Assembly (NCBI RefSeq): GCF_011762095.1
Contig: NZ_JAASQO010000009.1
Location: forward strand, 62,001 to 126,000
DNA length: 64,000 nucleotides
From: Parvibaculum indicum
GTDB taxonomy: Bacteria > Pseudomonadota > Alphaproteobacteria > Parvibaculales > Parvibaculaceae
Reading direction: 5' to 3'
The notes below the pieces were generated by a model. That model worked only from the letters and a program-made list of their open reading frames with translations, ran no database searches and had not been told where the DNA came from. The position numbers and the translations under genes were made by a program. Of the stretch, positions 5,191 to 7,181 are shown piece by piece. Positions within the stretch are counted from its first letter, which is position 1. Every line of letters begins with the position of its first letter.

Positions 5191-5267
5191 GGCCGGCACC
5201 CAGAACAGGTCAGCCCTGCTACCCTATCTGCGGGATCGTCCGCCGACGCATGATTTGAATCACCGTC

Positions 5268-5296
5268 TTGACCCGACGCCGCGCGCTGCCTATCTT
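5268..5296 (+). promoter_or_regulatory. sigma-70-type promoter of the leuA leader
   Basis: TTGACC at 5268-5273 and TATCTT at 5291-5296 are separated by exactly 17 bases. The expected transcription start falls about 7 nt after the -10, at or next to base 5303, which is the A of the leader-peptide ATG. The transcript would therefore begin with the start codon. The boxes and spacing are read directly; the start site is inferred. Confidence 0.6.
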
Positions 5297-5302
5297 CGCC
5301 AC

Positions 5303-5392
5303 ATGAACGCAACGCGCCACATCGCTGTTCTCGGCCTGGACCTTCCGCTTCTGCGGACGGGCCTTCTTGCGCGCGCGCTGCTCTGCGCTTGA
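5303..5392 (+). CDS. Leu-rich leader peptide upstream of leuA
   Basis: A short ORF of 29 codons begins with ATG at 5303 and ends with TGA at 5390-5392. Nine of the 29 residues are leucine, with three Leu-Leu pairs (residues 16-17, 21-22, 26-27), the composition expected of a ribosome-stalling control peptide. It starts where the promoter predicts transcription to begin, so it may be translated from a leaderless mRNA, as reported for the trp leader of Sinorhizobium. The stop codon overlaps a small hairpin (TCTGCGC / GCGCAGA, 5382-5395). leuA starts 136 bp downstream. This supports control of leuA by leucine supply, but I could not find a convincing U-tract terminator. Confidence 0.6.
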
Positions 5393-5528
5393 GCGCAGAA
5401 AACATCCCCTTCCGACATATCCAGTCCATCCGTTCGTTTATCGCCGCCGGCGCGGCGCAACCCTCTTGCAATATCTTCATTGCATGATGGGTGCGCGGCG
5501 AATTGGCCGCCGAATATCGAGAAGAACC
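5393..5528 (+). promoter_or_regulatory. leuA leader region with candidate attenuator hairpins
   Basis: The stretch between the Leu-rich leader ORF and leuA holds two clear hairpins: CGCCGC / GCGGCG at 5442-5457 (loop of 4) and TGCAAT / ATTGCA at 5467-5484 (loop of 6). The first is GC-rich and followed by CAACCCTCTT, a poor U-tract. A further GCGGC / GCCGC pair lies just before leuA. These could form alternative structures depending on ribosome position. Which is terminator and which antiterminator is not resolved by eye. Confidence 0.4.
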
Positions 5529-7181
5529 ATGCTGCAAGACCCAAGCCGAAAATACAGGGCATTCAAGCCGATCGAATTGTCCGATCGCCAATGGCCCAGC
5601 AAGACGATCACCACGCCCCCGATCTGGATGAGTACGGACCTCCGGGACGGCAATCAGGCGCTTTTCGAGCCGATGAATGCCGAGCGCAAACGCGCCATGT
5701 TCGAGCTGCTGGTGAAAATCGGCTTCAAGGAGATCGAGGCGGGCTTTCCGTCTGCCAGCGACACGGATTTCAACTTCATCCGTGAGCTGATTGAACAGGG
5801 CAAAGTGCCCGACGACGTTCGCGTGGAAGTGCTGACGCAAGCGCGGCCCGAACTCATCTCCCGCACCATGGAGTCCCTGCGGGGCGCAAAGAACGCCATC
5901 GTGCATGTCTATAATGCGACGGCGCCGAATTTCCGCGATGTCGTGTTCAACCAGGGCAAGCAGGGCGTCAAAGCCATTGCGACCGAGGCCGCGCACCAGA
6001 TCAGGGAGCTTGCCGCCGGACAACCCGAGACGAACTGGACCTTCCAGTACAGTCCGGAAGTCTTTTCCGGCACCGAACTCGACTTCGCCAAGGAGGTCGT
6101 CGATGCGGTGACGGAGATATGGAACGCCTCGCCCGACAACAAGGTCATCGTGAACCTGCCGGCGACGGTGGAGATGGCCTCGCCCAATGTCTATGCCGAT
6201 CAGATCGAATGGATGCACCGGAATCTGGAACGGCGCGACGGGATCATCCTCTCGGTCCACCCGCATAATGACCGCGGTACGGCGGTGGCCGCCGCAGAAC
6301 TCGCCGTGATGGCGGGCGCGGACCGCGTGGAAGGCTGTCTCTTCGGCAATGGCGAACGCACGGGCAATGTCGACCTCGTCACGCTGGCGCTCAATCTCTA
6401 CAGCCAGGGTGTGCATCCGGGTCTCGACTTTTCGCAGATCAACGAGATTGCGCGCACGACGGAATATTGCACCCAATTGCCGATCCACCCACGTCACCCT
6501 TATGTGGGCGATCTGGTGTTCACCGCCTTTTCCGGTTCGCATCAGGATGCGATCAAGAAAGGGCTCGGCGCGCGCAAGAAAGAGGAGCAGGTTTGGGACG
6601 TGCCCTACCTGCCGATCGACCCGCGCGATGTGGGCCGCACCTACGACTCGATCATTCGCGTGAACAGCCAATCCGGCAAGGGCGGCATCGCCTATCTGCT
6701 GGAAACCGAATACGGACTTTCCATGCCACGGCGGCTTCAGGTGGAATTCAGCTCCGCCGTGCAGAAATACACCGACCTCACCGGCCAGGAAGTCCGAGCC
6801 GCCGACATCTGGCGCATCTTCGAAGAAGAGTATCTGAATGCGACAGAGCCCTTCGAATATGTGGGCCACACGCTCTTCGACGAAGGCGGTAAGCAGGGCG
6901 TGAAGATGCGCGTGAAACGGCATGGCAAGGAGGAAGAACTGACCGGGCTCGGAAACGGTCCCATCGATGCCGCCATGAACGCCCTCTCGGTCAACCTGCA
7001 GGTGCGCCAGTATGACGAGCACTCGCTCGGATCCGGATCGGACGCGCAGGCCGCCGCCTTTATTGAGGTCGGCGATCCGGATCATCCGGGTGACCTTTTC
7101 GGCGTGGGGCTCGACCCCAACATCATCACCGCCTCGCTGAAGGCGCTGGTGAGCGCGGCGAACCGGGCCGCCGCCCGTTAA
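5529..7181 (+). CDS. leuA: 2-isopropylmalate synthase
   Basis: LeuA condenses acetyl-CoA with 2-oxoisovalerate in the first committed step of leucine synthesis. The 550-residue protein is of the long LeuA type. The metal and substrate motif RDGNQ is at 39-43, HPHNDRGT at 244-251 and GNGERTGN at 273-280. A C-terminal regulatory domain (about 430-550), where leucine feedback normally binds, is present. The ATG at 5529 is chosen because the [15 protein letters not shown] start is typical of the family; codons back to 5367 are non-homologous leader sequence. Downstream is a perfect 10-bp hairpin. Confidence 0.95.

Follow-up and report, generated by a model that had tools for sequence, protein, structure and literature searches.

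The window, by which we mean the whole stretch of 64,000 nucleotides analysed here, belongs to a Parvibaculum genome of 4.02 Mb in 37 contigs. It encodes a 2-isopropylmalate synthase of the yeast type (leuA), ahead of which lie a promoter, a short Leu-rich open reading frame (ORF), a hairpin around the stop codon of that ORF and a C-rich stretch. The features are as follows:

5268..5273, + strand: -35 element TTGACC (TTGAC in 25 of 25 Parvibaculum loci)
5291..5296, + strand: -10 element TATCTT, separated by 6 nt from the leader ATG (by 6-8 nt at all 25 Parvibaculum loci)
5303..5392, + strand: leader ORF of 29 codons plus the stop TGA (5390-5392); transcript start predicted at 5303 from promoter spacing
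5378..5383, + strand: final Leu-Leu pair, CTG CTC; its codons lie at -12 and -9 relative to the stop, as they do at all 25 Parvibaculum loci
5382..5399, + strand: stop-codon hairpin TCTGCGC-TTGA-GCGCAGA, a 7-bp stem with the stop TGA as the last three bases of the tetraloop
5403..5443, + strand: C-rich, G-poor stretch after the leader, a candidate loading site for a presumed action of Rho
5519..5524, + strand: probable Shine-Dalgarno sequence GAGAAG of leuA, read from the sequence
5529..7181, + strand: leuA, 2-isopropylmalate synthase of the yeast type (TIGR00970, 802.5 bits, cut-off 697.4)

The two promoter boxes, separated by a 17-nt spacer, form the only promoter-like match between 5190 and 5560 (mean of 0.1 in shuffles), and a promoter followed after 5 to 9 nt by an ATG occurs once in the 64 kb (mean of 0.01 in shuffles). 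An initial annotation had placed a leaderless, Leu-rich leader peptide here, and the boxes, their spacing, the ATG at 5303, the 29-codon ORF and its Leu pairs are all present at the positions it gave. Nine of the leader's residues are Leu, and three LL pairs account for six of these; the Leu codons are four CTT, two CTC and three CTG. The segment from 5303 to 5528 folds better than its shuffles (z of -2.84; 1 of 200 shuffles as good). A search with Rfam 15 returned no match at the gathering score in the window or in 10 related loci; for 5200-5650 nothing reached the threshold, and the one sub-threshold match had an E value of 1.9. We infer a leaderless transcript start at 5303 and control of leuA by leucine.

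The leader ORF within and beyond Parvibaculum

Conservation of the leader was read in 27 Parvibaculum genomes including that of the window, 25 of which have a readable region upstream of leuA. Left out were G005, where leuA is cut by a contig end, and G012, which has only a distant match, as were the leuA regions of two members of the family (G027, G031). A short ORF starts 6-8 nt after the -10 box at all 25 loci and is 23 to 30 codons long with 6-9 Leu; the final two of these are always at -12 and -9 from the stop, and the peptide ends in LLCA at 23 loci and in LLRA at the other 2 (these loci represent one genus with shared ancestry and are not independent, and the counts are given without significance). 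The annotation had proposed comparing Leu codons across close relatives as a check on its reading, and the ORF, the Leu codons and the distance from promoter to ATG are kept at every one of the 25 loci.

The leaders also vary and use codons in a distinctive way. Pairwise differences among the 25 are 0.24, 0.20 and 0.41 at codon positions one, two and three, the third being the most variable. Their 179 Leu codons are mostly CTT (46%) and CTC (41%; together 87%), with 9.5% CTG, whereas 39 window ORFs judged by composition to be genes use 16% CTT and 31% CTC (together 47%) and 46% CTG. The window's own leader has a weaker bias than the set of 25, with CTG as three of its nine Leu codons.

Beyond the genus, ORFs were chosen solely by their distance from a promoter (5 to 10 nt), with promoter hexamers and weights that we set ourselves, and were called Leu-rich at 20% Leu or more. 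The Alphaproteobacteria are represented by 93 loci, 88 from a class sample (289 genomes, 90 of which matched the LeuA family, 85 of them over the family cut-off) and 5 from a family search; the Beta- and Gammaproteobacteria are represented by 77 loci, the non-Parvibaculum members of the best 80 of 587 relatives. A promoter-abutting short ORF precedes yeast-type leuA at 66 of the 93 alphaproteobacterial loci, and 52 of these 66 ORFs are Leu-rich. The corresponding numbers for Beta- and Gammaproteobacteria are 35 of 77 and 31 of 35. Only 7 of 123 control ORFs, which may include duplicates and were picked by the same rule on the other strand or inside or downstream of leuA, are Leu-rich. The loci without such an ORF number 27 in Alphaproteobacteria and 42 in the beta/gamma set, including the four of Acinetobacter and several of Rhodocyclales. 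Leu-rich leaders of distant Alphaproteobacteria and of the beta/gamma set have other peptides and other stems than those of Parvibaculum.

Terminator-like hairpins directly after the leader were seen at other alphaproteobacterial loci, for example L027, L030 and L038. In Oxalobacteraceae (L103, L112, L121, L130) there appear to be tandem leaders upstream of leuA: a promoter-abutting Leu ORF and a later ORF that, by eye, ends in a Leu run followed by PIGCRA, PIGCQA or PIACLA, in some cases with a Shine-Dalgarno-like AGGAAAG or GGAAG upstream. Within the window's genome, no promoter-abutting short ORF was found upstream of ilvB (L202) or of two TrpE-like genes (L214 and L215, neither over its family cut-off), and the layout may not be general there for amino acid genes.

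The stop-codon hairpin and the region behind it

The initial annotation mentioned hairpins before leuA; that the stop codon lies in a hairpin loop was found in the follow-up analysis. At all 25 Parvibaculum loci, a perfect stem of 6 to 8 pairs encloses a loop that contains the middle base of the stop codon; the same holds for 27 of the 52 Leu-rich leaders of other Alphaproteobacteria, for none of 31 from the beta/gamma set and for 248 of 1980 control ORFs. The stem core CTGCGC/GCGCAG is common to 24 of the 25 Parvibaculum loci; L022 keeps the stop in the loop with a different stem, CTTCGT/ACGAAG. When the full leader is folded, the predicted probability of the hairpin is 0.69-1.00 for the 23 loci with the scored geometry (0.97 in the window); L018 and L022 lie outside that geometry, and their 3' arms pair upstream at 0.96 and 0.85, respectively. 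Folding only about 45-60 nt around the stop gives another stem as the best structure for the window, whereas the full leader favours the stop hairpin. By a folding criterion the hairpin was called at 20 of 25 Parvibaculum loci (the window is among the 5 misses), 40 of 66 alphaproteobacterial loci, 6 of 35 from the beta/gamma set and 34 of 123 controls. The hairpin persists when the ribosome footprint is placed over the first Leu codon; with the footprint over the last ones, it opens by construction of the mask.

Pairing was also scored in a rigid geometry. For Parvibaculum the value of 0.711, against 0.702 with the right arms re-dealt, is uninformative because the stem hardly varies. In 48 leaders of other Alphaproteobacteria it was 0.586 against 0.476, and higher (0.633) with the right arm slid by 2, as bulged stems would give; these 48 were chosen by hand with the help of the hairpin and so are no evidence for it. 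The beta/gamma set gave 0.271 against 0.302.

So perfect a palindrome, joined to a peptide end that is LLCA at 23 of 25 loci, could instead be a DNA operator or mark a small protein with a role of its own, leucine then not acting through translation. The palindrome, however, starts 79 nt into the predicted transcript; in a genome scan with the hairpin pattern, the window site is the only match with under two mismatches; and Leu-rich promoter-abutting ORFs recur, with their different peptides and stems, in distant Alphaproteobacteria and in the beta/gamma set. We consider such a role very improbable.

Behind the hairpin, we found no intrinsic terminator with a U-tract in the window, in agreement with the remark in the annotation that no clear U-tract follows the leader. 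A hairpin with a T-run between stop+8 and stop+110 scores 8 or more at 0 of 25 Parvibaculum loci (9% of mononucleotide shuffles), and the one weak terminator-like site, in L018, scores 6.3. The reading of the locus as a leucine attenuator survives in part: relatives bear out the conserved Leu leader, but not the intrinsic terminator of the classical form. In a classical attenuator, the stop hairpin would be the 1:2 hairpin, and a 3:4 intrinsic terminator would follow. The stop codon of the E. coli trp leader likewise lies in the loop of the first hairpin, and sites scoring 9 or more occur in 38% of the 48 other alphaproteobacterial leaders against 18% of shuffles, a comparison in which the hairpin had assisted the choice of leaders. 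Some other Alphaproteobacteria may use intrinsic attenuation where Parvibaculum does not. The Parvibaculum loci combine a strong 1:2-like stop hairpin with weak 2:3 pairing (0.01-0.28) and lack a 3:4 terminator, and we give the classical scheme little chance here.

In 15 of 17 aligned clade A loci the 5' arm is repeated downstream as TGCGCC, which hinted at a 2:3 antiterminator. Such an antiterminator is not favoured: once a ribosome is placed on the last Leu codons, the 3' arm is predicted to pair downstream at no more than those low values, and the window and L003 do not have the copy.

The leaderless layout and the near-invariant stem core, which is conserved beyond what pairing needs, could also fit a dual-function RNA like the trp leader of Sinorhizobium, released as a small RNA that acts in trans itself or through its peptide. 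There is, however, no terminator to release the RNA, which weakens the Sinorhizobium parallel, and the invariance of the stem may come from the coding constraint of LLCA. This possibility is, in our judgement, a slim one.

Base composition may offer a different route to early termination. In the 50 nt from stop+10, C exceeds G at 25 of 25 Parvibaculum loci by a mean of 11.0 (0.0 in window 50-mers, s.d. 5.0). Mean G is 7.7 there, against 15.7 in window 50-mers, and the fold energy is -2.5 kcal/mol, against -5.1 when shuffled. The skew is not extreme at individual loci: for the window's own stretch, 4.4% of window 60-mers equal or exceed it, and over the 25 loci this share ranges from 0.04 to 16%. 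C also exceeds G after the leader at 33 of 52 other alphaproteobacterial loci and 28 of 31 beta/gamma loci, where folding is about the same as in shuffles. As judged from composition and predicted folding, the C-rich, G-poor, unstructured stretch points to Rho-dependent termination.

A second element and the origin of leuA

Six Parvibaculum loci (clade B: L017, L019-L022, L196) carry a long hairpin nearer leuA, with a loop able to pair downstream. This second element includes Leu codons and, in L017, L019, L020 and L021, starts 92-95 nt before leuA. A pseudoknot scan detected it in 5 of 6 clade B loci at score 9 and in 4 of 6 at score 10, with none in shuffles, and in 0 of the other 19 Parvibaculum loci, including the window, in a strict scan without bulges. 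At score 10, pseudoknot-like elements occur at 17 of 93 alphaproteobacterial loci (4.1% of shuffles) and 8 of 77 beta/gamma loci (0.3%). The clade B element resembles in anatomy the LEU element of Actinobacteria, being set beside the description of the latter (PMC1262725) and not its sequences. Because beta/gamma loci also carry such an element, the window's clade has probably lost it.

The second element bears on translational control, in which a ribosome on the leader would alter access to the leuA Shine-Dalgarno sequence, as proposed for the actinobacterial LEU element. Its presence in clade B would suit this reading, as would the higher access predicted for L010, L013, L016 and L199 when a ribosome occupies the last Leu codons. 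Against it, access averaged over the 25 loci is 0.30 without a ribosome and 0.34 with one so placed, values that do not support a masking switch; access in the window is 0.48 in both states, and the 19 loci of the window's clade have no pseudoknot. Translational control seems unlikely, though less so than the three explanations weighed above.

LeuA of the window is 98% identical to that of L003 in the same genus. Outside the genus, the best matches to Parvibaculum LeuA are mostly from Betaproteobacteria, at 67-70% identity (best segment; best 80 of 587 relatives), whereas ten members of its own family have 55-61%. Of the control genomes, 14 in number, Corynebacterium glutamicum alone had a match to the yeast-type LeuA family. 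A quick tree of 85 proteins (36 alphaproteobacterial rows, 38 of 77 beta/gamma rows and 11 of 21 Parvibaculum rows) places Parvibaculum among the Beta- and Gammaproteobacteria, behind branches with support of 99 and 96 (midpoint rooting; some rows are long). Given this placement, Parvibaculum probably acquired the gene and its leader together. Two of 32 listed beta/gamma leaders (L065 and L078, both betaproteobacterial) have the Parvibaculum stem CTGCGC...GCGCAG just before the stop codon, and L018, a Parvibaculum leader ending in LLRA, looks intermediate between that layout and the one with the stop in the loop. These positions suggest that the hairpin stayed while the reading frame through it changed, and that gene and leader arrived jointly.

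Proposed leucine control of leuA and related systems

Both the anatomy of the locus and its conservation can be read directly in the 25 loci, and we build on them a reading that we favour while holding it at somewhat less than even confidence: leuA is under a leucine-responsive leader-peptide regulator that ends transcription early, most likely through Rho. Transcription would start at or next to the leader ATG, so that a ribosome could load on the 5' end as the RNA leaves RNA polymerase. With charged tRNA-Leu plentiful, the ribosome would read to the stop codon and depart; the stop hairpin would then close, leaving the C-rich stretch behind it bare, and transcription would end early, most likely via Rho. 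With charged tRNA-Leu short, the ribosome would wait at the final Leu-Leu pair, whose second codon shares bases with the 5' arm of the hairpin. The waiting ribosome would keep the hairpin open and crowd the start of the C-rich stretch, and transcription would continue into leuA. A ribosome waiting there would extend just to the beginning of that stretch, which counts against its blocking Rho. A further point against the reading comes from the beta/gamma leaders, 0 of 31 of which have the stop in such a stem, though C exceeds G in most of them.

A broader history is more tentative still. It is possible that yeast-type leuA genes of Alpha-, Beta- and some Gammaproteobacteria share a widespread layer of leucine control, a leaderless Leu leader at the 5' end that is followed in many lineages by an LEU-like pseudoknot leader. 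The cassette would have moved between classes with the gene, and most Parvibaculum would have reduced it to a Rho-stopped device with one hairpin, in which the ribosome governs the hairpin around its own stop codon.

A leaderless leader would skip the usual initiation step, and the sensor could start once the RNA emerges. The recurrence of such leaders in Alphaproteobacteria, Betaproteobacteria and a few Gammaproteobacteria hints that selection has kept the leaderless start for sensing leucine, and speaks against its being a peculiarity of Actinobacteria or of the trp leader in rhizobia. Parvibaculum also offers a natural experiment, the second element being missing at 19 of 25 loci and the first present at all. 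That the stop lies inside a hairpin which in some betaproteobacterial relatives precedes the stop would lead to a simple model of ribosome-controlled termination without an antiterminator.

Several known systems share parts of this design. In the tna operon of E. coli, a Rho site beside the leader peptide does the work of an intrinsic terminator, and the operon answers to tryptophan via arrest at the stop codon. The Parvibaculum leader is alike in lying next to a putative Rho site with no intrinsic terminator; unlike tna, its likely signal is codon starvation. The Sinorhizobium meliloti rnTrpL/peTrpL is an attenuator small RNA and is reported to function in its own right (PMC10117765; see also PMC7298713). 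It shares with Parvibaculum an alphaproteobacterial host and a leaderless (here predicted) leader ORF ahead of an amino acid gene (PMC10117765, in part), but tryptophan is the amino acid there, and the Parvibaculum leader lacks a terminator.

Closer in target are the leuA leaders of other bacteria. The LEU element of Actinobacteria is characterised by a pseudoknot and by a base stem in which Leu codons pair with the Shine-Dalgarno sequence (PMC1262725). It has in common with our locus a leader ORF with a Leu run upstream of leuA and no obvious terminator; its pseudoknot and its stem were not found in the window, where access is equal with and without covered Leu codons. In Campylobacter jejuni, the partial text of PMC3847290 describes LeuL as a leader of 28 aa that uses rare codons, has Leu codons close to its end and lies on an RNA that ends shortly after the stop, all of which recall what is seen or predicted in Parvibaculum; it differs in preceding a leuABCD operon and in having been found through a search for ORFs with a ribosome-binding site. 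Leader peptides of leuA are also reported for Corynebacterium glutamicum (PMC3890552, PMC4046766). LeuL1 of Streptomyces lividans, as given in the available sections of PMC8079986, is a Leu-rich 15-aa ORF upstream of leuA with a leaderless start from transcriptome data and no typical Rho-independent terminator. Parvibaculum likewise has a short, Leu-rich, leaderless (here predicted) ORF before leuA without a typical terminator. In contrast to LeuL1, which is actinobacterial and has a start taken from transcriptome data, its start is predicted, and its stop codon lies in a conserved hairpin followed by a C-rich stretch.

A literature search with few subscription journals among its sources showed, among the matches listed, no account of leuA leaders in Alpha- or Betaproteobacteria (the available part of PMC2965389 does not mention leuA; Vitreschak 2004 may list some). 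With leuA leaders known in Streptomyces and other bacteria, a leaderless Leu leader before leuA without a terminator is therefore of a known kind, and the variant found in Parvibaculum appears to be new.
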